From NCBI RefSeq assembly GCF_016862515.1, contig NZ_BONC01000049.1:1-58633 (forward strand): 58,633 bases of DNA, read 5' to 3'. The position numbers and the translations under genes are program-made. This document shows, in pieces, positions 19,565 to 32,784 of the stretch. The notes below the pieces were generated by a model, which saw only the letters and a program-made list of their open reading frames with translations, had not been told where the DNA came from and made no database searches. This stretch comes from Asanoa iriomotensis. Lineage in GTDB: Bacteria; Actinomycetota; Actinomycetes; Mycobacteriales; Micromonosporaceae. Numbering within the stretch: the stretch's first letter is position 1; each line of letters starts with the position of its first letter.

Positions 19565-20273
19565 GCGCGACGGCGATCAGCCGCACGGCCGCGGTCAGGG
19601 CCGCGCGGGGGTTGTCGCGCCAGTCCGGTGTCGGTGGCGTCAGGGCCGTCGAGCGGGGGTAGCGGTCGGCCAGGTCCGGGATGTGGGTCCGGATCGCGGT
19701 GGCGCGGGCCAGCCATTCGTCGACACCCCGTTGCGACATCCGCTGGTACGCCGCCGTGGTGGCCGCGGTCGCGCGGACCGTCGCGTACAGCATGGTGATG
19801 GTCGTCGTCCGGCGGTCGTCCGGCACCTGCCACGTCGCCAGGATCGCGGCCAGGCGCTCGAGCCAGTCCTGCTCGTTGGGCCCCTGGCTGGCCTCCGACC
19901 ACGGCCGTTCCGTCAGCCACGGGTGGGCCACGTAGACGTCGAACAGCGCGCCCGACCAGGCCAACAGGGACTCGGCCAGGGAACCTGCCGGGTCCGTCCA
20001 GGACGGCATCGCGCTGGCCTGGTCCTGCATCAGGGCCAGGAGGTGCTCCTTGGTGCCCACGTACGGGTAGAGGGCCATCGCGGTTTTGCCCAGCCGCGCC
20101 GCGATCGCGCGGGTGGAGACCGCGGGCAGGCCGTCGGCGTCGGCCAGCGCGATGCCGACCCGGAGGATCTCGTCGAGGTCTAGCTGCTGGGCCGGGCCTC
20201 GGCGCGGGGTGGGCAGCGCGGTGCCCCGATGGCGCCAGAGCCGGCGCACGTGTGCATCGATGTCGTCGGTCAT
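19554..20273 (-). CDS. TetR-family regulator
   Basis: A 239-residue repressor with the start at 20273. The N-terminal HTH is LDEILRVGIALADADGLPAVSTRAIAARLGKTAMALYPYVGTKEHLLAL (residues about 30-80), the standard TetR layout. The C-terminal ligand domain is of the TetR_C type common in actinobacteria (AWSGALFDVYVAHPWLTERP). It is transcribed divergently from the alpha/beta hydrolase gene with only 25 bases between the two starts, so it very likely controls both genes. Confidence 0.88.
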   Translation of the reverse strand: MTDDIDAHVRRLWRHRGTALPTPRRGPAQQLDLDEILRVGIALADADGLPAVSTRAIAARLGKTAMALYPYVGTKEHLLALMQDQASAMPSWTDPAGSLAESLLAWSGALFDVYVAHPWLTERPWSEASQGPNEQDWLERLAAILATWQVPDDRRTTTITMLYATVRATAATTAAYQRMSQRGVDEWLARATAIRTHIPDLADRYPRSTALTPPTPDWRDNPRAALTAAVRLIAVALTA

Positions 20274-20298
20274 AGTCCTTACAGTGTATAGTGTTTTT
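20274..20298. promoter_or_regulatory. Compact divergent promoter between TetR and hydrolase genes
   Basis: The 25-base gap contains TATAGT at 20287-20292, placed 6 bases before the hydrolase ATG, so that transcript is probably leaderless. On the other strand TACACT and an AAGGA ribosome site precede the TetR ATG. AGTGT occurs twice with a 2-base spacer (AGTGTATAGTGT), the likely core of the repressor site. Confidence 0.55.
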
Positions 20299-21162
20299 AT
20301 GACTGCCGCACGCATGCACGACGACACGACGATCGAGGTGGCCGTCCGCGGTGCCGGACCGGCCGTTCTGCTGTCCGTCGACACGACGCCGATCGAGGGT
20401 GAGGCCGCCGACCAGCTGCGGGCCTGGGGCGCCGACCCGGCGCTGGGCCACAACCTCGCCACCGGTCTCGCCGAGGCGGGCTTCCGGGTCGTCACCGCCG
20501 ACTACGAGGGCCACCTGGCCGACCACCCCAAGCCCGACACCCTGACCCCGGACGCCGTCGCGGCCGACCTGCTCGCGATCGCCGCCGCGGGCGGTGCGGA
20601 CCGCTTCGCCTACTACGGCTACTCCTGGCTCGCCCTCGCGGGCCTGCAGCTCGCGCTGCGCACCGACCGGCTCACCGCCCTCGCGATGGGCGGCTACCCG
20701 CCGCTCGGCGGCCCTTACGACGCGATGCTCTCGGTCACCCGCACCGCGCACGAGATGGCGGTGGCCAACCAGGGCAAGGTCTTCGCACCCGCGGAGCCCG
20801 GCGACTGGGACTCGGCCGAGGTCACCAGGACACCGGACCAGACGCGGCAGTACGTGACCCTCTACGAGTCCCTGCGCGGCTTCGACGAACGCGCGGCGCT
20901 GCCCCGGCTGACGATCCCACGCCTCGCCTTCGCCGGCGCCGACGACAACATCACTTATGGTCCGAAGTGGAACGACGCACACGTCGCGATCGGTGAGCCG
21001 CTCGCCCGCCACCGCGCCGAGCTGGAAGCCGCGGGCTGGGCGGTCACGGTCCTCCCGAGCGCCGACCACATGAGCGCCATGCGCGCGGAGGTCGTCTTGC
21101 CGCTGCTGACCCCGTGGCTGACCGAAGCCGTCAGGTCAAGCGCAGGCCGGCTTTCCGGCTGA
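20299..21162 (+). CDS. Alpha/beta hydrolase controlled by the adjacent TetR regulator
   Basis: A 287-residue protein whose start is fixed by the TATAGT element 6 bases upstream. It has the alpha/beta hydrolase order of a first strand AVLLSVDTTPIEG, a nucleophile elbow YYGYSWLALAG (Ser in GYSW), an acid strand FAGADDNITYG and a C-terminal His in PSADHMSAM. The oxyanion segment lacks the usual HG pair (VDTTPIEG instead), a departure seen in some actinobacterial members. Its substrate probably is, or resembles, the TetR ligand. The 3' end overlaps the convergent MerR gene by 32 bases. Confidence 0.8.
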   Translation: MTAARMHDDTTIEVAVRGAGPAVLLSVDTTPIEGEAADQLRAWGADPALGHNLATGLAEAGFRVVTADYEGHLADHPKPDTLTPDAVAADLLAIAAAGGADRFAYYGYSWLALAGLQLALRTDRLTALAMGGYPPLGGPYDAMLSVTRTAHEMAVANQGKVFAPAEPGDWDSAEVTRTPDQTRQYVTLYESLRGFDERAALPRLTIPRLAFAGADDNITYGPKWNDAHVAIGEPLARHRAELEAAGWAVTVLPSADHMSAMRAEVVLPLLTPWLTEAVRSSAGRLSG

Positions 21163-21556: not shown

Positions 21557-22273
21557 ATGACGATCGCACCCGGCTTCCTCGCCGCCCTCGACCGGTTCGA
21601 GACGCTGCCCGACGCGCGGCGGCTCCGCGAACACAGCTACGACCTGCTGGAGCTGAAGCCCGGCGACGAGGTGGTCGACGTCGGCTGCGGCACCGGCCGC
21701 GCGGTGGCCGAACTGGCCGAGCGTGGCGCGGTCGCGACGGGGGTCGACAACAACCCGGCGATGGTCGAGGTCGCCCGGCAGCGGCACACCCGCTGCCGCT
21801 TCCAGGTCGGCGACGCGCTGGAGCTGCCGTTCGCGGACGGCCAGCTCGCCGGCTACCGCTCCGACAAGGTCCTGCACGACCTCACCGACCCGGCCGCAGC
21901 CCTGGCCGAGGCCGGCCGCGTCCTCAAGAGCCGCGCGCGCGCAGTCGTGATCGACATCGACTGGGACGCGATCATCATCGCCGGCGACGACCCCGCGACG
22001 ACGAGGAATGTCGTTCACGCCCGCACCGACAAGCTGAACGCCGGCTTCGCCGCCCGCCAGGCGCCAGAGCTGCTCCGCGCACAAGGCTTCACCGACGTCG
22101 GTACGACCGCACACCACGAGGTGATCACCACCCCGAACCTCGGCGAGCTGTTCCTAGGCCGGATCGCGGGCGACGCCACCGCGTGGCTCGACGACCAACG
22201 GACCCGGGCGCGCACCGGCGACCTCCTGCTCGTGGTGCCGATCCTGGTCACGACGGCGCGCGCCCCGGGTTGA
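21557..22273 (+). CDS. SAM-dependent methyltransferase, class I
   Basis: A 238-residue protein with the Rossmann-type SAM site VVDVGCGTGRAVAELAERG (motif I, about 40-58), TGVDNNPAMVEVARQR (motif II) and QVGDALELPFADGQL (motif III). RVLKSRARAVVIDIDW is the post-motif strand. It belongs to the UbiE/Methyltransf_11-like group, and no substrate can be assigned. It starts 10 bases from the divergent MerR start, so the promoter of each gene must reach into the other; MerR control is likely. Confidence 0.85.
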   Translation: MTIAPGFLAALDRFETLPDARRLREHSYDLLELKPGDEVVDVGCGTGRAVAELAERGAVATGVDNNPAMVEVARQRHTRCRFQVGDALELPFADGQLAGYRSDKVLHDLTDPAAALAEAGRVLKSRARAVVIDIDWDAIIIAGDDPATTRNVVHARTDKLNAGFAARQAPELLRAQGFTDVGTTAHHEVITTPNLGELFLGRIAGDATAWLDDQRTRARTGDLLLVVPILVTTARAPG

Positions 22274-23537: not shown

Positions 23538-24056
23538 TCACACCTGGAAGGGGTTGCCGAAGTAGCCGACCAGGGTCAGGTCCTTCGGCGGGGAGGTCGA
23601 TGCGCTCTTGGCCCGCCCCACCTCGATCCGCAGGTATCTGGGCTCCAGGTCGTAGCAGCCGTGCGGATCGTCGAAGCAGAAGTTCTCCAGCCCCACGTTG
23701 ATCGCCAACGCTTCGTCCTGGCCGTTGCAGCTCGTCCGCGAATGCATCTTGTACGACCAGGCGCCGGTCCAGTACGACGTGTCGTAGGCGCCCATGATCC
23801 AGACGCGGGCGCAGTAGCCGTCGGTGGACATGTCCTTGAGCAGGAACGGCACCTGCGCGTAACCGTTCAGGTGCCAGGTGATCTCCGAGCCCGAGATCCG
23901 TGCCCTGGACACACCGCCGACCACGTGCACGACGTCCGGGACATCCGCCCGCTCGGTCTCGTCGGCGTGCGCCGGGCTGGGCATCGCCACCGTCACCAGC
24001 CCTGACATCAGCGCGGCCAGGACGAGCAGCGCTCGCCAGCGTCTTGCCTGTCGCAT
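23538..24056 (-). CDS. Secreted protein of unknown function
   Basis: A 172-residue product starting MRQARRWRALLVLAALMSGLV, a clear Sec signal peptide cleaved after AHA near residue 30. The mature part (about 140 residues) has five Cys (in DGYCARV, SRTSCNGQ, ENFCFDD and HGCYDLE), enough for two disulfides, and several aromatic-rich strands (YDTSYWTGAWSYKMHSRT). I recognise no family. The mid-region resembles small extracellular beta proteins of actinomycetes, but no function can be stated. The start at 24056 is set by the signal peptide; an upstream ATG would add an unrelated leader. Confidence 0.7.
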   Translation of the reverse strand: MRQARRWRALLVLAALMSGLVTVAMPSPAHADETERADVPDVVHVVGGVSRARISGSEITWHLNGYAQVPFLLKDMSTDGYCARVWIMGAYDTSYWTGAWSYKMHSRTSCNGQDEALAINVGLENFCFDDPHGCYDLEPRYLRIEVGRAKSASTSPPKDLTLVGYFGNPFQV

Positions 24057-24218
24057 TTCGTACCCCCGTGCGTAGCGGTCATGTGCCGGCCAGGCTGGCA
24101 CCCCGCGACGCTCGCGATCCAGGTGTTTCGGCTCTGGCCGAAGGTTGCGTGATCCCGCAACAGCGGTTCGCACCACGGCGGCACGCACTTACCGTCGTCG
24201 CTGCGACGGGGGGGACGG

Positions 24219-25226
24219 ATGCTGAGGATCCACTTCACAGGCGACGACATCGCGCGGACGCGCATCGCGTCGGCGGCCGACCCGCTCTGGGAGCTCGTGC
24301 TCGCCATGCACATGCTCCGCGGCCAGCGCGGAGACCTGCTGTTCGCCGGCTGGCGGCGCGGAGCCCTGGCCGCCCTCGACCGCGCCGGCCTGTCCGGGCG
24401 GCTCGGGCTGCTATCGGCGCTGACACCGACGCTCGGCTACTTCCCCGACTTCCTCACTCCGGCCGCCGCCACCCGGGGGCTGGACCACGGGCTGGAAGCG
24501 ATCCGTGCGACGCCGGTCCCGGTGCTGGCCCGCGACCTGCGCCGGCTGCCGACCACGGCGGCCGTCGCGCCGGTCGTCCGCGGCTTGGCCCGCGGTGACG
24601 TGGACCTGCTGGTCGGGCTCACGGCGACCATGCACGCGGTGCACCGCGCGGCGATCGCGCCGCACCAGCCGGTGGTGGAGGCGGCGGTGCGCCGGGACCG
24701 GGCCATCCGCGTGACGGCGCTGGCCGACGGCGGGGTCGAGGGCATGCTGTCGAGCCTGCGCCCGCGCATGGCCTGGTCGGCCGGTGAGCTGCGGGTTCCG
24801 GGGCACCGGGATCAGGAGATCGCGCTCGGCGGGCGCGGACTGCTGCTCGTACCCTCCTATTTCTGTCTCCACCATCCGATGACGCTCTTCGATCCGGCGT
24901 TGCCGCCGGTGCTGGTCTATCCGGTCGACCGCACGGCGGCCGTCGCACCGGCGGCGGGACGGCGCCTGGCCCCGCTGCTCGGCCAGACCCGGGCCGCGAT
25001 CCTCGAGGCGATGGACGCCGGCCGCAGCACCACCGACCTGGCCCGCCTCGTCGGCGTCTCGCCGGCCTCCGCGAGCGAGCACAACACGGTCCTGCGCGAC
25101 GCCGGCCTGATCACCAGCCACCGCGACCGCAACCGGGTCGTCCACCAGCTGACTCCGCTGGGGCGCGCGGTGCTCGCCGGCAACACGGCGCGTCCGGACT
25201 CGCCCTCCTTGGGGGCTTACATCTGA
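24219..25226 (+). CDS. ArsR-like winged-helix regulator with long N-terminal domain
   Basis: A 335-residue protein with a strong GGGGGGACGG ribosome site. Residues 1-240 form the helical/beta domain typical of a large actinobacterial group (MLRIHFTGDDIARTRIASAADPLWELVLAMHMLRG, later GGRGLLLVPSYFCLHHPMTLFDP). Residues about 245-325 are an ArsR-type wHTH (GQTRAAILEAMDAGRSTTDLARLVGVSPASASEHNTVLRDAGLI). These regulators lack the metal-site Cys of classic ArsR. It reads into the ketosynthase and PKS genes after a 60-base gap that holds a small inverted repeat, so it is the likely pathway regulator. Confidence 0.85.
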   Translation: MLRIHFTGDDIARTRIASAADPLWELVLAMHMLRGQRGDLLFAGWRRGALAALDRAGLSGRLGLLSALTPTLGYFPDFLTPAAATRGLDHGLEAIRATPVPVLARDLRRLPTTAAVAPVVRGLARGDVDLLVGLTATMHAVHRAAIAPHQPVVEAAVRRDRAIRVTALADGGVEGMLSSLRPRMAWSAGELRVPGHRDQEIALGGRGLLLVPSYFCLHHPMTLFDPALPPVLVYPVDRTAAVAPAAGRRLAPLLGQTRAAILEAMDAGRSTTDLARLVGVSPASASEHNTVLRDAGLITSHRDRNRVVHQLTPLGRAVLAGNTARPDSPSLGAYI

Positions 25227-25229
25227 TTT

Positions 25230-25242
25230 GTCCGTTTAGGAC
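25230..25242. promoter_or_regulatory. GTCC-N5-GGAC inverted repeat upstream of the ketosynthase gene
   Basis: A short dyad (GTCCGTTTAGGAC) sits just after the regulator stop codon, with TACTCT at 25244-25249 as a possible -10 for the PKS genes. It is a candidate binding site for the adjacent ArsR-like regulator. The arms are only 4 bp, so support is weak. Confidence 0.35.
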
Positions 25243-25286
25243 GTACTCTCTTCCCCGAACGAGCGACCTTCGGGGAAGGAATGAGC

Positions 25287-26600
25287 ATGGTGAGGTCGGC
25301 TACCGACGCGCGTGACACCGTCGTCACGGGCATGGGCTTCTGTCTGCCGGGTCTGGGCCGGGCGGCGATCACGACCGAGGACGTCTGGGAGATCGCCTCC
25401 AACGGGATGACGGCGATCACGTCCCGGGACGACGGGGTCTTCTACGGTTCGGTCGAATTGGCACCGGAGAAGTTCTCCGAGTACTTCCCCGAGATCCCCG
25501 GGATCTTCGCGGCGCACTTCACCGACACGCACCGGTTCGGGCTGATGTCGTTCCTCGAGGCGTGCACCGACGCGAAGCTCGACGTGCGGGCCGGCGCGCT
25601 GACCGAGGCCGGCATCCTGGTCGGCCGCGGCGGCGTCGACACCAACATCGCGGGCTACCTCAAGGTGCTCGACACCGAGATCAGCGACCTCAACATCATC
25701 GAGGCGACCTCGCTGTTCATCGAGAGCTCGATCGCGGTCACCTCCTCGGACGTGGCGCTGGCCCAGTCGGCCTTCGCGCGCACCACCGGCCCCTGCTACA
25801 CCGCCAACGCCGGCTGCTCCTCGTCGTCCGTGCAGATCAACAACGCCCGGATGCTGATCAACAGCGGCGCGTCCGACGTGGTCGCGGTGACCGGCGTCGA
25901 CAACTTCTACTACCCGCTGCTCAGGAAGGTCTTCGACCTGGTCCGCATGGTTCAGGACGCCGACGAGCGGCCGACCAACGCGCTGCCCGACGAGCCGATC
26001 GAGTTCGACCGGCTGATGCGGCCGTACGACCGGCGCCAGGGTTGCGTCAACTACGGCGAGGGCTCGGTGAGCCTGATCCTGGAGAGCCGTGAGCACGCCG
26101 AGCGGCGCGGTGCGGCGATCTACGGCCAGGTGCTCGGCCAGGCGGTCACCCGCGACGGCCTGCCGCACCCGCTGGCCAGCGACCAGACCGGCGGCGGCCT
26201 CGTCGCGGCGGTCCGGCAGGCGCTCGGCGGCCGGCCGATCGAGCAGGTCCGGTACGTGCACGGCGGCAGCGACGGCGGCATGGCGATGCAGGAGGCCGAG
26301 GCGATCCGCGCGCTCTTCGGCGACCGGGCCGGCGACCTGCTGATGACCTCGCAGGAGGGCTGCTTCGGCCACAACGGCGCGCCGACCGGCGCCCTGGGCG
26401 TCGCGCTGACCCTGCTGATGATGCGCAACCGCACGGTCTGCCCGACCGCCAACTGCGAGGAGCCGCTCGACTTCCTGCCGTTCAACCCGCTGCCCGGCTA
26501 CGAAAGCGTGCCGCTGGCCTTCGACCACGCCCTGAGCTTCACCTACCAGCTGGGCGGCGTGCAGAGCGCGATCCTGCTCGGCAGCCCCGACGCCCTCTGA
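25287..26600 (+). CDS. Free-standing beta-ketoacyl synthase associated with the PKS
   Basis: A 437-residue thiolase-fold ketosynthase. The ATG at 25287 is preferred over 25281 because the GGGGAAGG ribosome site then has a 7-base spacing. The Cys-His-His triad is intact: Cys177 (TANAGCSSSS), His325 (YVHGGSDGG) and His362 (CFGHNGAPTGAL). The context of all three differs from ordinary KAS or PKS KS: HGTGT is replaced by HGGSD, and the conserved Lys five residues before the last His is Glu. It has no AT, ACP or linker. Encoded 26 bases before the PKS, it may start, extend, couple or release chains made by the megasynthase. It is not a CLF, since the Cys is kept. Confidence 0.85.
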   Translation: MVRSATDARDTVVTGMGFCLPGLGRAAITTEDVWEIASNGMTAITSRDDGVFYGSVELAPEKFSEYFPEIPGIFAAHFTDTHRFGLMSFLEACTDAKLDVRAGALTEAGILVGRGGVDTNIAGYLKVLDTEISDLNIIEATSLFIESSIAVTSSDVALAQSAFARTTGPCYTANAGCSSSSVQINNARMLINSGASDVVAVTGVDNFYYPLLRKVFDLVRMVQDADERPTNALPDEPIEFDRLMRPYDRRQGCVNYGEGSVSLILESREHAERRGAAIYGQVLGQAVTRDGLPHPLASDQTGGGLVAAVRQALGGRPIEQVRYVHGGSDGGMAMQEAEAIRALFGDRAGDLLMTSQEGCFGHNGAPTGALGVALTLLMMRNRTVCPTANCEEPLDFLPFNPLPGYESVPLAFDHALSFTYQLGGVQSAILLGSPDAL

Positions 26601-26626
26601 TTCTGCACAGCCCCGAGAGGACAGCA

Positions 26627-29600
26627 GTGGAACACGAGCACATCGCGATCGTCGGGATCGGCTGCCGGTTGCCCGGCGACGTCGACTCGCCGGCCGCCCT
26701 GTGGCGGCTCCTCGCCGACGGTCGCGATGCCGTCGGACCCTTCCCGGCCGACCGGCCTTCACCGGGTGCGGGTGCACCCGGCGACGGCGGCTGGCTGGCC
26801 GACGTGACCGGCTTCGACGCCGACTTCTTCGGCGTCTCCCGCCGTGAGGCCGATGTGCTCGACCCGCAGCACAGGCTCATGCTCGAGGTGGTCTGGGAGG
26901 CGTTCGAACACGCCGGCCTGCCGCCGGACCGGTTGGCCGGCGAGCCGACCGGCGTGTTCCTCGGCCTCAGCTACGACGAGTACATGCAGCGCCTCGCCGG
27001 CCAACCCGAGGAGCTGGCCGGCGGCATCCTGACCAACGGGCACTGTGTGGCCGCCGGGCGGATCTCGTACCTCCTCGGTCTGCACGGCCCGGCGGTCAGT
27101 GTCGACACCGCCTGCTCGTCCGGGCTCGTCGCCGTGCACCAGGCCGCGCAGGCGCTGCGCGAGCGGGAGTGCGACGTCGCTGTCGCGGGTGCGGTCAACC
27201 TGATCGTCGACGAGCGCACGACCCGCGAGTTCACCCGGTTCGGCATGCTCTCGCCGACCGGGCGGTGCCGCGCCTTCGACACGCACGCGGACGGCTTCGT
27301 CCGCTCCGAGGGCGCCGGCGCCGTCGTGCTCAAGCGGCTTGGCGACGCGCTCCGCGACGGGGACCGGATTCTTGCCGTGGTACGCGGCTCGGCCGTCAAC
27401 CAGGACGGCCGCTCCGACGGCCTGTCGGCGCCCTCCGCCGAAGCGCAGGAGGCGGTCTACCGGGCGGCGCTGGTCCGGGCCGGCCTCGACGCGAGCCAGG
27501 TCGGCTATGTCGAGGCGCACGGCACCGGCACGCGGCTCGGCGACCCGACCGAGCTGGCCAGCCTGACCCGGGTGTACGGCGGACAGGGCCGGGCGGTCGC
27601 GATCGGCTCGATCAAGAGCAACATCGGGCACCTCGAGCCGGCTGCCGGCATCGCGGGCCTGATCAAGACCGTGCTGGCCCTGGACTACGGCGTGATCCCG
27701 GGCAACCTGCACTTCACCGGCTGGACGCCGGGCACCGACCCGTCGGCTGCGGGGCTGTTCGTGCCGACCGGCACCACCCGCTGGCCCGACGGCGCCGCGG
27801 TGCGGCGGGCGGCGGTCTCGTCGTTCGGCTTCTCCGGCACCAACGCGCACGTCGTGCTGGAGGAGGCGCCGAACCTGCCGTCGCCGTCCGCCACGCCGCG
27901 GTCCACCGGCGAGCCCGAGGTCGTGGTGATCCCCGCCGGCTCGCGCGATGCGCTGCCGGCCGCCGCCGCCCGGGTGGCGGACTGGCTCGACGGCGACGGG
28001 CGGGACGTGCCGCTGCGCGACGTCGCGCACACGTTCGCGCTGCGCCGGGGTGCCGGCCGCGGGCGGCTCGGCGTCGTCGCGACCGACACGGAGGACCTCT
28101 CCGACCGGCTCCGGGCGTACGCGGCCGGCCGGGTCGACCCGCTCGTGGTCGACGGCGAGGTGCCGGGCGTGGCCCGCGGCGCGGTCTGGGTGTTCTCCGG
28201 CCAGGGTTCGCAGTGGGCCGGCATGGGCCAGGAACTGCTCGCCACCGAGCCGGCCTTCGCGGCCAGCCTGACCCGCACCGACGCGCTGGTCTCCTCCGAG
28301 GCCGGCTTCTCCGTGCTCGACGTGGTGCGCTCCGGCCAGCCGGTGTCGGGCTGCGGCTTCGTGCAGCCGGTGCTGTTCGCTGTCCAGGTCGCGCTCGCCG
28401 ACCTCTGGCGCTCGTACGGCGTGGCCCCGGCGGGCGTGCTCGGCCACTCGATGGGCGAGGTGGCCGCCGCGGTCGTGGCCGGCGCGCTGTCGCTGGCCGA
28501 CGGCGCCGCCGTGATCTGCCGCCGCTCGGCGCTGCTCGAACGGATCGCCGGCGCGGGCGCCATGGCCAGCGTCGCGCTCGGCCGCGCCCAGGTCGAGGCC
28601 GACATCGCCGCGGCCGGCGCGGGTGCCGAGGTCTCCGTCGCGGTGGTCGCGGCGCCGTCCAGCACCGTGATCGCCGGCGACGACGAGTGGGTCCGGCTGC
28701 TGGTCGACGCCTGGGACGCCGAGGGCGTCTCGGCCCGGCTGGTCGCGGTCGACGTCGCGTCGCACTCGCCGCAGGTCGACCCGCTGTTGGAGGACCTGGA
28801 CGCGGCGCTGAAGGACCTGCGCCCGCGCGACCCGGCGGTGCGCTTCTACTCGACGGTGCTGGACCCGCGTTCGGAGCAGCCGGCGTTCGACGCCGACTAC
28901 TGGTGCCGCAACCTGCGGCAGCCGGTGCGCTTCGCGGCCGCGGTCGAGGCGGCGGCGGCCGACCGGCACGGCGTGTTCCTCGAGGTGTCGCCGCATCCGG
29001 TGGTGACCGCGGCGGTCCGGGAGAGCCTGCACCCGGACGCGGTGGTGGTCGGCACGCTGCGGCGCGAGGAGCCGGAGCTGGCCACGTTCCGCACGTCGAT
29101 GGCCGCCCTGCACTGCGCGGGCGTGCCGGTCGCCTGGTCGGTCCTCTACGGCGACGCCGAGCTGGCCGACCCGCCGACGATCGCGTACGACCGGCGCCGG
29201 CACTGGGTCGACCTTGCCCCGGTCTCGCCCGCGCCGCTCGTGGTCGGGCTGCCGGGCGTGCACACCGAGGTCGCCGGCGATCCCGTGCGGCACACCTGGG
29301 TCGGCGACGCCGGCACGGACGCGCTGCCGTTCCTGGCCGACCACCGGGTGCACGACGAGCCGGTGCTGCCCGGCGCGGCGTTCCACGCGCTGGCCCTCAG
29401 CGCGGCGTGCGCGGTGTTCGGTGCGCCGGCGGACCAGGTGGTGGTCGAGGACCTGGCGTTCCGGGAGCTGCTCCGGCTCTCGGCGCGCACCGAGGTCAGC
29501 ACGACGGTGACGATGATCGGGCCCGACCGGGCCGAGTGCGAGGTGTACGCCCGCGACGACGCGGGTGCCTGGGTGCGGCACGCGACCGCGTTGCTCCGCG

Positions 29601-32600
29601 CTGGTTCGGGGGACTCCACTGTGGAGGATGTCGCGTGTGATGTTCCGGGCGACGCCGCCGAGCTCTACGCGGCGATGCGGTCCCGGGGGATCGCGCACGG
29701 TCCGGCGTTCGCGGGGCTGAGCGGGCTGACCCGCTCGGCCGACGGGACCGCGGCCCGGGCCCGGGTCACGCCGCCCGGTGCCGCGAGCGCCCTGGCGGCC
29801 CACCCGGTCCTGCTGGACATGTGCGCCCAGCTGCTGGTGGCCACCGTGCTCGACGCGCCCGGACACGGCCTCGTGCTGCCGGTCGGGATCGCCCGGGTGG
29901 CGGTGACCGGCGACCTGTCACTGGCCGCCTTCGCCTCGGCCCGACTGACCGCGGCGTCCGTGGACGGGTTCGAAGGCGACGTGGTGCTCCGGGACGGCGC
30001 GGGCGCGGCGGTGCTGACCGTGCGTGGCTTGCGCTGCGTCCGCCAGCAGGTGCCCGCCTCCGAAGCCGAGCTGCCCCAGTCGTGGCTGCTCGAGCCGCAC
30101 TGGGTGCCGGCGACGCTGCCCGCCGCCGGGACGGTCGGGCGGGTGCTGCTGGTCGGCGAGGGCGGCGGTGCCGTCGAGCCGGTCGTGACGGCGCTGCGGG
30201 CCCGGGGGAGCGCGGTCGACGTGCTCGACGTGCCGCTCTCCGAGGCGGTGCCGGAGCTGCTCGGCGGCGTGCTGCCGGGCGTGGTGGCGCTGGTCTGCGG
30301 CGGCGCCGCCGCGGTCGGCGACACGGCGCTGGACCGGACCCGGCGGGCGGTCGCGGTCGCCCAGGCGCTCTGCGCCGAGCCCGTGCCGCCGCGGCTGGTG
30401 CTCGTCACCGGCGGGGCGTTGGACGAGGCGGCGTTGCGCGGTGTGGTCCGGGTGCTGGCCATCGAGCACCCCGAGCTGCGCACCACGGTGGTCGAGACCA
30501 CCGACGCCGACCTGCTCGCCGCGGAGCTGCTCGCCGACGGCATGGACGACGAGGTCCGGCACGCCGGCGGGGAGCGCATGGTCGCCCGGCTGGCGCACGC
30601 GCCGGTCCCGGAATCGTCCACGGTGGACGTGCGGTGCGGCGTCGACGGTTTCGCGTTGCGGGCGGGCCGGCTCGGTGACCTCTCCGGGCTGGAGCTGGTC
30701 GCCGGCTACCGGCGCCGGCCCGGGCCGGGCGAGGTCGAGATCCAGGTGACCGCGGCCGGGGTCAACTTCCGCGACGTGCTCACCGTGCTCGGCCTGTTGC
30801 CCGGCGACGGGCACGACGTGCGCTACCGGATCGGCTTCGAGTGCGCGGGCGTGGTCAGCGCGGTCGGCTCCGGAGTGTCGCTGGCCGTCGGTGAGTCGGT
30901 GCTCGCCGTCGACCTGCGTGGCGGTGCGTTCGGCTCGTTCCTGACCGTGCCGGCCACCGCCGTGGCCCGGATGCCCGGCGGGCTCGACCCGGTGGTCGCC
31001 GCCGGCCAGCTCACCTGCTACCTGACCGCCTGGTACGCACTGCGGCACGTGGCCGGGCTGCGTTCCGGCGAACGGGTGCTGGTGCACAGCGGCACGGGCG
31101 GCACCGGGCTCGCGGCGATCGCCGTGGCCCGCCGGCTCGGCGCGACCGTGCTGGCCACGGCCGGCACCGAGGAGAAGCGCGCCCGGCTGCGCGAGTTGGG
31201 CATCGCCACCGTGATGGACTCGCGGTCGCTGGACTTCGCCGCCGAGACCCGCGCCGCCACCGGCGGCGAGGGCGTGGACGTCGTGCTCAACTCGCTGGCC
31301 GGGCCGGCGATCAGGGCCGGGCTGTCGACGCTGCGGCCGTTCGGTCGGTTCGTCGAGCTCGGCGTGCGGGACATCATCGCGGACCGGGCTCTCGGGCTCG
31401 CCCCGCTGCGGCACAACATCACGTTCGTCACGGTGGACCTGATCGAGCTGCAGAACCGGCGGCCGGACGTGTTCGCGACCGTGCTGCGGGAGGTGCTCTC
31501 CGGGCTCGCCGACGGGTCGCTGCCGCCGCTGCCGGTCCGCGCGTACCCGCTGACCTCGGCGACCGATGCGTTCCGCACGATGGCCGCGGCCGCGCACCAC
31601 GGCAAGCTGGTGTTGACTGTGCCCGGGTCCGGGACGCTGCCGGCCGCGCGCCCCGACGGGCCGCCGGTGCGCTCCGACGGCTCGTACATCATCACCGGCG
31701 GCCTGACCGGCGTCGGCCTCGCGGCGGCGTCCTGGCTGGCCGCGCGCGGTGCCGGCCATCTCGTGCTCAACGGGCGCCGGGCGCCGTCGCCGGAAGCGGC
31801 GGAGGCCATCGCGGAGCTGCGGGCCGGCGGCACGCGGGTCACGGTGATCCGGGGCGACATCGCTTCGCCCGGGACCGCGGAGGCGTTGGTGGAGGCGGCG
31901 ACCGCGTACCGGCGGCCGCTCTGTGGTGTCCTGCACGCGGCGATGGTGCTCGCCGACGCGGCGCTGTTGACGGTCGCGGACGAGCAGTTCGACACGGTCT
32001 GGCGGCCGAAGGTGGGTGGCGCCCGCGCGCTGCACGCCGCGGTCGCGGGGCACCGGCTGGACTGGTTCGTGGTGTTCTCGTCGATGGCGTCGCTGATCGG
32101 CAATGCCGGGCAGACGGTGTACGCGTCGGCGAACGCGTGGCTCGACGGGTTCGCGTCGTGGCGTTCCGGTCAAGGGCTGCCGACGCTCGCGGTCAACTGG
32201 GGGCCGTGGGGTGAGACCGGTGCGGCGACGGACTTCGCGGCGCGGGGTTACACGACGATCGGCACCGCGGACGGGTTCTCCGCACTGTCCACTTTGCTGG
32301 CTCACGACCGGGTGCGTACCGGCGTGATTCCCGGACCGCCCGCGACGTGGGTGCCCGCGCCTGGGTCGCCGTTCTTCGCGTCGCTGGCCACGGGTCCGGC
32401 TTCGCCTGCGGTGGTTGACGCGTCGGCTTCCGACATCCGCGCCGACCTGGCGGCGACCCCGGCGGGCCTGGCCCGGCGGACGGCGCTGGAGGCGTGGGTG
32501 GGTGGTCACGTCCAGGCGGTGATGCGGCTCGGTGACCGGGCCCTGGACCCGCACACGCCGTTGCGGGCGCTGGGCTTCGACTCGCTGCTGGCGATGGAGT

Positions 32601-32722
32601 TGCGGGCGCGGCTGGAGACCGGTCTGGGCGTCAAGCTGGCGGGCAACTTCGTATGGCAGCACCCGACCCTGGCCGCGCTGGCCGAGGGCCTGGCCGGGCA
32701 CATGGACCTGGCGCTGGAGTAG
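26627..32722 (+). CDS. Single-module fully reducing type I PKS: KS-AT-DH-ER-KR-ACP
   Basis: A 2,031-residue synthase from a GTG start with a GAGAGG site. KS 1-425: Cys163 (DTACSSG), His298 (EAHGTGT), Lys330 and His335. AT about 510-830: Ser608 in GHSMGE and a VASH motif (710-713), which favours methylmalonyl over malonyl extender. DH about 880-1130: His906 in HRVHDEPVLPG (the usual Gly is Asp) and Asp1064 in LLDMCAQ. ER about 1360-1670: HSGTGGTGLAA NADPH site; the stereo-diagnostic Tyr is Leu. KR about 1680-1860: GGLTGVG, then catalytic Ser, Tyr and Asn in FSSMASLIGN and VYASANAW. ACP: Ser1986 in GFDSLLAM. There is no docking helix and no thioesterase. The domain order and size resemble iterative mycocerosate-synthase-type enzymes. 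Confidence 0.95.
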   Translation: MEHEHIAIVGIGCRLPGDVDSPAALWRLLADGRDAVGPFPADRPSPGAGAPGDGGWLADVTGFDADFFGVSRREADVLDPQHRLMLEVVWEAFEHAGLPPDRLAGEPTGVFLGLSYDEYMQRLAGQPEELAGGILTNGHCVAAGRISYLLGLHGPAVSVDTACSSGLVAVHQAAQALRERECDVAVAGAVNLIVDERTTREFTRFGMLSPTGRCRAFDTHADGFVRSEGAGAVVLKRLGDALRDGDRILAVVRGSAVNQDGRSDGLSAPSAEAQEAVYRAALVRAGLDASQVGYVEAHGTGTRLGDPTELASLTRVYGGQGRAVAIGSIKSNIGHLEPAAGIAGLIKTVLALDYGVIPGNLHFTGWTPGTDPSAAGLFVPTGTTRWPDGAAVRRAAVSSFGFSGTNAHVVLEEAPNLPSPSATPRSTGEPEVVVIPAGSRDALPAAAARVADWLDGDGRDVPLRDVAHTFALRRGAGRGRLGVVATDTEDLSDRLRAYAAGRVDPLVVDGEVPGVARGAVWVFSGQGSQWAGMGQELLATEPAFAASLTRTDALVSSEAGFSVLDVVRSGQPVSGCGFVQPVLFAVQVALADLWRSYGVAPAGVLGHSMGEVAAAVVAGALSLADGAAVICRRSALLERIAGAGAMASVALGRAQVEADIAAAGAGAEVSVAVVAAPSSTVIAGDDEWVRLLVDAWDAEGVSARLVAVDVASHSPQVDPLLEDLDAALKDLRPRDPAVRFYSTVLDPRSEQPAFDADYWCRNLRQPVRFAAAVEAAAADRHGVFLEVSPHPVVTAAVRESLHPDAVVVGTLRREEPELATFRTSMAALHCAGVPVAWSVLYGDAELADPPTIAYDRRRHWVDLAPVSPAPLVVGLPGVHTEVAGDPVRHTWVGDAGTDALPFLADHRVHDEPVLPGAAFHALALSAACAVFGAPADQVVVEDLAFRELLRLSARTEVSTTVTMIGPDRAECEVYARDDAGAWVRHATALLRAGSGDSTVEDVACDVPGDAAELYAAMRSRGIAHGPAFAGLSGLTRSADGTAARARVTPPGAASALAAHPVLLDMCAQLLVATVLDAPGHGLVLPVGIARVAVTGDLSLAAFASARLTAASVDGFEGDVVLRDGAGAAVLTVRGLRCVRQQVPASEAELPQSWLLEPHWVPATLPAAGTVGRVLLVGEGGGAVEPVVTALRARGSAVDVLDVPLSEAVPELLGGVLPGVVALVCGGAAAVGDTALDRTRRAVAVAQALCAEPVPPRLVLVTGGALDEAALRGVVRVLAIEHPELRTTVVETTDADLLAAELLADGMDDEVRHAGGERMVARLAHAPVPESSTVDVRCGVDGFALRAGRLGDLSGLELVAGYRRRPGPGEVEIQVTAAGVNFRDVLTVLGLLPGDGHDVRYRIGFECAGVVSAVGSGVSLAVGESVLAVDLRGGAFGSFLTVPATAVARMPGGLDPVVAAGQLTCYLTAWYALRHVAGLRSGERVLVHSGTGGTGLAAIAVARRLGATVLATAGTEEKRARLRELGIATVMDSRSLDFAAETRAATGGEGVDVVLNSLAGPAIRAGLSTLRPFGRFVELGVRDIIADRALGLAPLRHNITFVTVDLIELQNRRPDVFATVLREVLSGLADGSLPPLPVRAYPLTSATDAFRTMAAAAHHGKLVLTVPGSGTLPAARPDGPPVRSDGSYIITGGLTGVGLAAASWLAARGAGHLVLNGRRAPSPEAAEAIAELRAGGTRVTVIRGDIASPGTAEALVEAATAYRRPLCGVLHAAMVLADAALLTVADEQFDTVWRPKVGGARALHAAVAGHRLDWFVVFSSMASLIGNAGQTVYASANAWLDGFASWRSGQGLPTLAVNWGPWGETGAATDFAARGYTTIGTADGFSALSTLLAHDRVRTGVIPGPPATWVPAPGSPFFASLATGPASPAVVDASASDIRADLAATPAGLARRTALEAWVGGHVQAVMRLGDRALDPHTPLRALGFDSLLAMELRARLETGLGVKLAGNFVWQHPTLAALAEGLAGHMDLALE

Positions 32723-32743
32723 TTCTTTTGTACCGCTGGACTG

Positions 32744-32784
32744 CCGCGGCCGGGGCAACGATGCCCCGGCCGCGGTCTTTTGTT
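32744..32784 (+). terminator. Intrinsic terminator of the PKS operon
   Basis: The arms CCGCGGCCGGGGCA and TGCCCCGGCCGCGG form a perfect 14-bp stem with an ACGA loop, followed by TCTTTTGTT. It begins 22 bases after the PKS stop. This is a classic rho-independent terminator and marks the end of the polyketide transcription unit. Confidence 0.93.

Follow-up and report, generated by a model that had tools for sequence, protein, structure and literature searches.

A ketosynthase-fold protein paired with a mycocerosic acid synthase-like polyketide synthase in Asanoa iriomotensis

The locus

The stretch of DNA analysed here (the window) is the entire contig NZ_BONC01000049.1, 58,633 nucleotides of the 8.57 Mb genome of Asanoa iriomotensis, and our subject is a pair of adjacent genes within it that encode a discrete protein of ketosynthase (KS) fold, hereafter dKS, and a type I polyketide synthase (PKS). 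The original prediction for this DNA had called attention to the pair; the finding was real but partly misread, and the kinship of the proteins turned out to be more interesting than the motif on which the prediction had dwelt, pointing to a PKS like mycocerosic acid synthase (MAS) with an unusual, probably non-condensing KS partner. The closest named matches of dKS are from Asanoa, at 90% identity. Both genes lie on the + strand, dKS first, with an intergenic gap of 26 bases:

25281..26600, + strand: discrete KS-fold protein (dKS), 439 aa (translation; Pfam ketoacyl-synt N and C)
26627..32722, + strand: putatively fully reducing, iterative-type type I PKS, 2,031 aa (translation; Pfam domains)
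32743..32776, + strand: intrinsic-terminator-like hairpin 3' of the PKS gene, 15 pairs (13 GC) with a T-rich tail

The Pfam domains and the hairpin agree with the arrangement first described, a discrete KS 26 bases before a 2,031-residue synthase with KS, acyltransferase (AT), dehydratase (DH), enoylreductase (ER), ketoreductase (KR) and acyl carrier protein (ACP) domains and a strong terminator behind it. Two terminator-like sites were found against 1.4 expected from shuffles, the other site having 5 pairs only. As also predicted, no thioesterase (TE), phosphopantetheinyl transferase, tailoring or export gene was found within the dKS-PKS unit, and there was no PapA/FAAL-type partner or ligase among the 14 window proteins scanned. 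The genome carries two ACPS-family genes, both away from this locus, so the ACP of the PKS could in principle be activated.

The polyketide synthase and its kinship

By Pfam, the PKS has the domain order KS-AT-DH-ER-KR-ACP, with nothing after the ACP and no TE:

26636..27715, + strand: KS domain, C163/H298/K330/H335 present (Pfam, motifs)
28184..29125, + strand: AT domain with GHSMG, VASH and VQP (Pfam, motifs)
29282..30043, + strand: DH domain, HxxxGxxxxP with His and Pro kept and Asp for Gly (Pfam PS-DH, PKS_DH_N)
30722..31615, + strand: ER domain (Pfam ADH_N, ADH_zinc_N_2)
31679..32212, + strand: KR domain (Pfam KR)
32501..32686, + strand: ACP domain with GFDSL, the final domain (Pfam PP-binding, motif)

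We compared the motifs of 13 PKSs from dKS-PKS pairs, the window included and loci L008, L013 and L053 excluded as their PKS is cut or split. The KS motifs DTACSS and HGTGT and the Lys and His of SxKxNxGH were kept in 13/13, as were the AT motifs GHSMGE, VDVASH and VQP and the ACP motif GFDSL, and the ER and KR motifs varied little. Of the DH motif HxxxGxxxxP, all 13 keep the His and Pro and only 7 the Gly, its replacements being Asp (three Asanoa rows and L021), Ala (L015) and Asn (L022).

In a tree with 19 outside PKSs, taken as the best KS-AT matches in 61 sampled genomes of the order, the 25 pair PKSs formed one clade (support 100/99) that was sister (100/98) to four PKSs from a single family of the order, which we take to be mycobacterial, partly from a model name; closer relatives than these four may exist beyond the 61 genomes. 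The four sisters score 3,568-3,959 bits against NF041183, a model of Pks2/MAS-type PKSs with a cut-off of 2,400, whereas the window PKS falls below that cut-off at 1,644.9 bits. They share with the window PKS the domain order, the size (about 2,100 aa in one protein) and the AT motifs, their set GHS[ML]G, VASH and VQP being identical. The MAS-like character proposed for the synthase is supported to this extent, as the sister group of Pks2/MAS-type PKSs among those sampled. The neighbours differ. Condensation-type genes directly adjoin the sister PKSs downstream in three of the four loci, and PapA_C, AMP-binding and MMPL genes lie close by in the fourth, whereas the pair PKSs instead follow dKS.

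The active site of dKS

Five codons of dKS mark the positions compared at its active site, numbered here from the first Met:

25815..25817, + strand: Cys179, the nucleophile, aligned by profile with the canonical Cys; invariant in 45/45 rows and in 13/13 plasmid rows
26259..26261, + strand: His327, at the Asn of NAHGT in the family alignment
26265..26267, + strand: Gly329, at the position of the catalytic HGTGT His (family alignment, hhalign)
26355..26357, + strand: Glu359, replacing the catalytic Lys; Glu in 16/16 clade A, 29/29 clade B and 13/13 plasmid rows
26370..26372, + strand: His364, the second catalytic His, retained in 45/45 rows and 13/13 plasmid rows

Here clade A denotes the dKSs of dKS-PKS pairs and clade B the KSs of multi-KS clusters. 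The residues C177, H325 and H362 named in the original prediction are all present, counted from the second Met (C179, H327 and H364 from the first), and its Glu in place of the conserved Lys is E359. Its choice of H325 as the catalytic His was not confirmed, as Gly329 takes that position in the family and profile alignments, and these also did not confirm that HGGSD stands in place of HGTGT, a register that is ambiguous when the window protein is taken by itself.

In the family alignment (L-INS-i; L071, L073 and clade B loci L028, L029, L031, L035, L040 and L050 excluded), the column of the catalytic His holds Gly in all 23 clade A rows, which represent 22 proteins since L067 is identical to L018, and Gly (18) or Ala (6) in the 24 clade B rows. 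The same column holds His in the three β-ketoacyl-ACP synthases (KASs) of the organism's own genome and in 4/4 fam7 KSs. Profile-profile alignment with hhalign gave the same register, with the catalytic His on Gly329 and no gap there, and the plasmid dKSs, aligned among pair members only and so without KASs, have Gly at the equivalent of 329 in 13/13. At the H327 column there is His in 17 and Asn in 6 of the 23 clade A rows, the latter including all six Frankia-family rows, and Asn (23) or Ser (1) in clade B. Since these Frankia-family pairs persist with Asn in 6/6 rows, H327 is not required for the pair to be retained. Between the Gly and the last His, the spacing is 37 residues in 14/23 clade A rows and 35-38 in the remainder; between the two His residues, the own-genome KASs show spacings of 37, 37 and 34, and the single fam7 KS measured shows 39. 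At the GFGG loop, 24 of 25 pair dKSs have Q-[LIV]-GG and one has QTGG.

Of the residues of a KAS I/II enzyme (Cys, HGTGT His, Lys, second His), dKS keeps only the Cys and the second His. The pattern of a non-elongating KS (KS0), in which the Cys is kept and the HGTGT His lost, is present, with the register of the window protein itself ambiguous.

Family relationships of dKS

dKS matches Pfam ketoacyl-synt N and C only and has no match to ACP_syn_III, the KAS III-type family. It scores 128.7 bits against the fabF model, where the cut-off is 493.75, and remains under the cut-off of every NCBIfam model matched. When 79 KSs were placed in a tree, those of the 16 pairs came out as a single clade (100/100), which lies within KSs from other clusters, grouped with 12 clade B rows at 100/99, and is separate from the group of the PKS's own KS; the three own-genome KASs fell outside a 49-row dKS branch with support of 100/99. 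The long branches of this tree meet outside the dKS family and its root is a drawing root. Three loci were kept out of the trees: L011 (cut in dKS), L020 (cut in the PKS and an apparent duplicate of L008) and L054 (an unrelated 26% match). On the model score and tree placement, an identity of dKS as an ordinary FabF was rejected, in keeping with the distinctness that the original prediction had put forward, and that of a chain-length factor was rejected on the retention of Cys179 in 45/45 rows.

The clade B clusters, found in Streptomyces and other actinomycetes, have KSs that share C / Gly or Ala / E / H with dKS, but their surroundings differ from those of the pair. In two example loci, L036 and L042, Pfam and NCBIfam identified their neighbours as further KSs, KAS III-like proteins, short-chain dehydrogenases/reductases (SDRs), an amidohydrolase, a CoA ligase and a CoA transferase. 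The AT, DH, ER, KR and ACP of the PKS were found in 0/29 clade B loci within the stretches retrieved. Two kinds of KS in these clusters (L024-L052) are without the HGTGT His. One such cluster was found in Propionibacterium acidifaciens, and a clade B KS lies in a 963-aa frame at L048:5100-7988 and L050:9953-12841, where Pfam showed a fusion to SDR domains for L048.

Conservation and distribution of the pair

A neighbourhood search, proposed with the original prediction, found the KS-PKS pair conserved in relatives. Among 46 loci drawn from the dKS alignment, 14 had all six PKS domains behind dKS on the same strand; a further locus was cut in the PKS by a contig end, one was cut in dKS, 29 had a dKS relative with none of the other PKS domains in the stretch retrieved, and one was unrelated. 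In all pair loci read, dKS comes first and the PKS second. All six Asanoa genomes searched contain dKS (split over two contigs in one), and the PKS is present in 4/4 retrieved Asanoa regions. A class-wide scan at a strict cut-off matched 9 of 394 genomes, with a PKS KS adjoining in 8 (the window counted); a PKS KS was also next to dKS in 9/10 other loci of the class scan, at least two of which are from repeat genomes of the 46-locus set. A sample of the order, for which four candidates were scored in each genome, gave matches in only 2 of 397 genomes, and in the Frankia family there were 7 dKS copies in 5 of 35 genomes, Parafrankia soli being one carrier, with all PKS domains in 5/5 regions. 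Pairs were found in Asanoa, Streptomyces, Kitasatospora, Catellatospora and Frankiaceae; the unit is scattered, yet it is in every Asanoa genome examined. One Frankia-family genome (G437) carries two separate pairs, L096 and L097, and genome G680 has two dKS copies, each followed by a PKS KS.

The distance matrices of dKS and PKS were correlated across 13 of the 16 clade A loci, with the same three excluded as in the motif comparison (Mantel r 0.89, reached in 0/9,999 permutations; r 0.92 without Asanoa). Against four Asanoa relatives, dN/dS was 0.17-0.26 for dKS and 0.18-0.21 for the PKS. Because these values are well below 1 and adjacency is kept across families, the pairing is beyond chance. 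Synonymous divergence within Asanoa was lower for dKS (pS 0.20-0.24) than for the PKS, DAHP synthase and RtcB genes (0.27-0.33), a weak signal, also when viewed in windows.

In a phage collection, 14 of 50,697 records gave weak KS matches, with 25.8-29.5% identity among the best 10 of these 14, and the 13 pattern matches among viral contigs include none that encodes a relative. No paper on the dKS-PKS pair turned up in the literature, where subscription journals are thinly covered, so this is weak evidence of absence.

Plasmids and the DUF5988 protein of Streptomycetaceae

In Streptomycetaceae, the pair has a gene for a 69-aa DUF5988 protein next to it in 22/22 loci tested, made up of 9/9 contig loci, where the gene lies upstream of dKS in 7 and downstream of the PKS in 2, and 13/13 plasmid loci (a partial match in L089). 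Searches of Asanoa, Catellatospora, Jatrophihabitans (a short contig) and Frankia-family loci did not find it, and one clade B locus, L051, has a DUF5988 match. Searches of the A. iriomotensis genome with PF19450 and PF16911 were empty, but so were their controls, and absence is not implied.

We found dKS in 22 plasmid records, at 52-58% identity to the window dKS, which is the range of pair members. The plasmids extend from 70.5 kb (linear) up to 1.07 Mb. Thirteen records (L078-L090), from Streptomyces and Kitasatospora, were analysed, the other nine being mostly of species already sampled. All 13 loci carry a PKS with all domains; in L086 (L086:15535-23361) the PKS is interrupted by an IS4-family insertion sequence transposase gene. 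Twelve of the 13 plasmid stretches are annotated; 11 of these have IPT/TIG or Ig-like repeat genes, and 10 have a gene for a primase or replicative helicase. Ig/TIG genes make up 4 of the 19 annotated genes around the pair on the smallest plasmid, against 0/39 in the first 35 kb, and on another the figures are 1/20 near the pair against 3/38 further away; these counts are descriptive only. A TIG search of the A. iriomotensis genome gave two matches, both on contigs other than that of the window. No gene named as PapA or FAAL was found in the 12 annotated stretches, whose gene tables are incomplete; L084 has one gene annotated as an acyltransferase, about 13 kb from dKS.

Immediate surroundings in Asanoa

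Three neighbours lie upstream of the pair in the window:

24219..25226, + strand: ArsR-like/DUF5937 regulator, a mere neighbour (Pfam)
21557..22273: methyltransferase, 3-5 kb from the pair with other genes between
20086..21162: frame with a weak alpha/beta-hydrolase match, 3-5 kb upstream with other genes between

We do not count the methyltransferase or the weak-hydrolase frame as part of the dKS-PKS unit. The original prediction had joined the regulator to the KS and the PKS as a single unit. By tblastn, however, the regulator was not found beside the pair in 4/4 other Asanoa loci (L061-L064), and it was rejected as a member; since it is not kept beside the pair, the unit in Asanoa consists of two genes and not three. 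In three of those four loci a DAHP synthase gene is directly upstream of dKS, and an RtcB gene stands on the far side of the PKS in 4/4 retrieved regions, on the opposite strand in one. Beside the regulator, a 216-aa frame (23538-24188, - strand) has a signal-peptide-like stretch and no Pfam match.

Discussion

The anatomy of the pair, its conservation, its kinship and the residues missing from dKS in the family alignments can be read directly from the sequence, and from them we infer, with moderate confidence, a two-gene lipid synthase in which dKS is non-condensing and transfers an acyl chain, most likely at the exit. In this proposal, the PKS would build a fully reduced and probably methyl-branched acyl chain by reusing one KS-AT-DH-ER-KR-ACP set, iterative use being suggested because it is a single module without partner modules. 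Elongation would need no second KS because the PKS's own KS is intact; the PKS would thus elongate alone, and the unit appears to lack a way in or out for the chain. The finished chain would stay on the C-terminal ACP of the PKS, and dKS would take an acyl chain onto Cys179 and pass it on without condensing. Most likely it would unload the finished chain to an acceptor, in the place of a PapA/FAAL-type enzyme, with loading of a starter chain as second choice. That dKS does not elongate is suggested because the HGTGT His (Gly329) and the Lys (Glu359) are lost while Cys179 and one His are kept, and an acyl-transfer role, at the exit over the entry, because dKS stands where the sister PKSs have transferases. 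Non-elongation, acyl transfer and its direction, iteration and methyl branching are thus interpretations of the sequence evidence. Of the roles that the original prediction had offered for the KS, hand-over or release without condensation fits better, and its example of a condensation is less likely, as C/Gly/H with Lys replaced by Glu is the non-elongating type.

A precedent for such a role comes from mupirocin biosynthesis, where a non-elongating KS0 takes the chain over from an ACP and needs its Cys to do so (PMC7619045), and a non-elongating KS has been described as being without the histidine (PMC6855096). The likeness of dKS to a KS0 such as MmpE KS0 is that the Cys is kept and the His lost, and dKS is set beside it with no KS0 in our trees. 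They differ in that KS0 is a domain within a trans-AT megasynthase, whereas dKS is free-standing, its partner PKS contains an AT, and Glu replaces the Lys as well.

Several points weigh against this proposal. The window dKS and those of L008, L009 and L010 carry a two-residue deletion just past the motif; the H327-H364 spacing of the window dKS is 37, as in two of the own-genome KASs; pairwise alignment to three of four references sets H327 on the catalytic His for these same four proteins (the fourth reference gave a scattered register across the clade); and phmmer of the window dKS alone aligns HGGSD with HGTGT, H327 again on the His. In single-sequence alignments H327 lands there because of the two-residue deletion just downstream, and the idea of a re-gained catalytic His was dropped once the register had been checked by family, profile and pairwise alignments. 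A re-registered triad in the Asanoa dKS is possible; loss of the catalytic His in it is likely, not certain. Nor would loss of a single His prove non-elongation, because KAS III enzymes carry out condensation with a single His and an Asn. As regards the PKS, full reduction is a conditional reading, since the DH Gly is kept in just 7/13, and the methylmalonyl specificity of the AT is suggested by motifs (GHSxG, VASH and VQP) that we take to be of methylmalonyl type. The placing of dKS in a PapA slot is an argument from analogy; when the whole genome was searched for PapA_C there were no matches, but its control was equally empty, and an unloading enzyme could be encoded elsewhere in the genome.

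A different possibility is that dKS does condense, by means of a rearranged active site, and that a carbon-carbon bond joining the PKS chain to a second acyl unit, as with the stand-alone KSs of α-pyrone pathways, would end the synthesis and give a β-keto or pyrone product. In favour of this, Cys179 and His364 are invariant, and H327 is present in 17/23 pair rows, with the canonical spacing in Asanoa. The family alignment nevertheless puts Gly at the His position in 23/23 rows, Glu replaces the Lys, Frankia-family loci retain the pair with Asn at 327, and dKS matches Pfam ketoacyl-synt and not ACP_syn_III, all of which make this reading unlikely. The stand-alone KSs MxnB and CorB of α-pyrone biosynthesis resemble dKS in being discrete KSs that work with a type I PKS, but they are condensing enzymes of KAS III type, whereas Pfam places dKS with KAS I/II. 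Stand-alone KSs are reported for the biosynthesis of the α-pyrone myxopyronin (PMC5724707).

Improbable to a similar degree, in our estimate, is that dKS serves as an entry gate, a priming transacylase that would load a starter acyl chain from fatty acid synthesis onto the PKS. The constant position of its gene ahead of the PKS gene would suit this role, the residue set would permit transacylation, and there is no ligase among the 14 window proteins scanned; against it, the sister-type PKSs work without a KS-like partner, as reported for MAS, and the Condensation/PapA-type genes observed beside the sisters are reportedly for enzymes that act at the exit. That dKS is a non-catalytic scaffold or a partner like a chain-length factor is highly improbable, for although two of its four catalytic positions are lost, the nucleophilic Cys and one His are invariant in 45/45 rows, unlike in classical chain-length factors, which have lost the active-site Cys.

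Returning to the proposal of a non-condensing transfer at the exit, we offer a more tentative extension, rather doubtful as a whole, that dKS represents a novel release class: a KS-fold acyltransferase, derived from a multi-KS family and bereft of its condensing residues, that would unload a MAS-like iterative PKS in place of PapA/FAAL, and that in Streptomycetaceae may belong to a plasmid module with DUF5988, close to replication and TIG-repeat genes, whose branched lipid might serve the plasmid or its spread, for example via the host surface.

The dKS-PKS pair is a conserved, mobile type I PKS unit of just two or three genes, and as neither a thioesterase nor a ligase nor a PapA is seen next to it, it raises the question of how a MAS-like synthase sheds its chain without the partners of its sister group. 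The unit is small enough for rebuilding in a laboratory Streptomyces or in vitro. If dKS does release the chain, iterative PKSs would have release enzymes of KS fold, and one would expect such methyl-branched lipids far outside the mycobacteria, including on the linear plasmids of Streptomyces.

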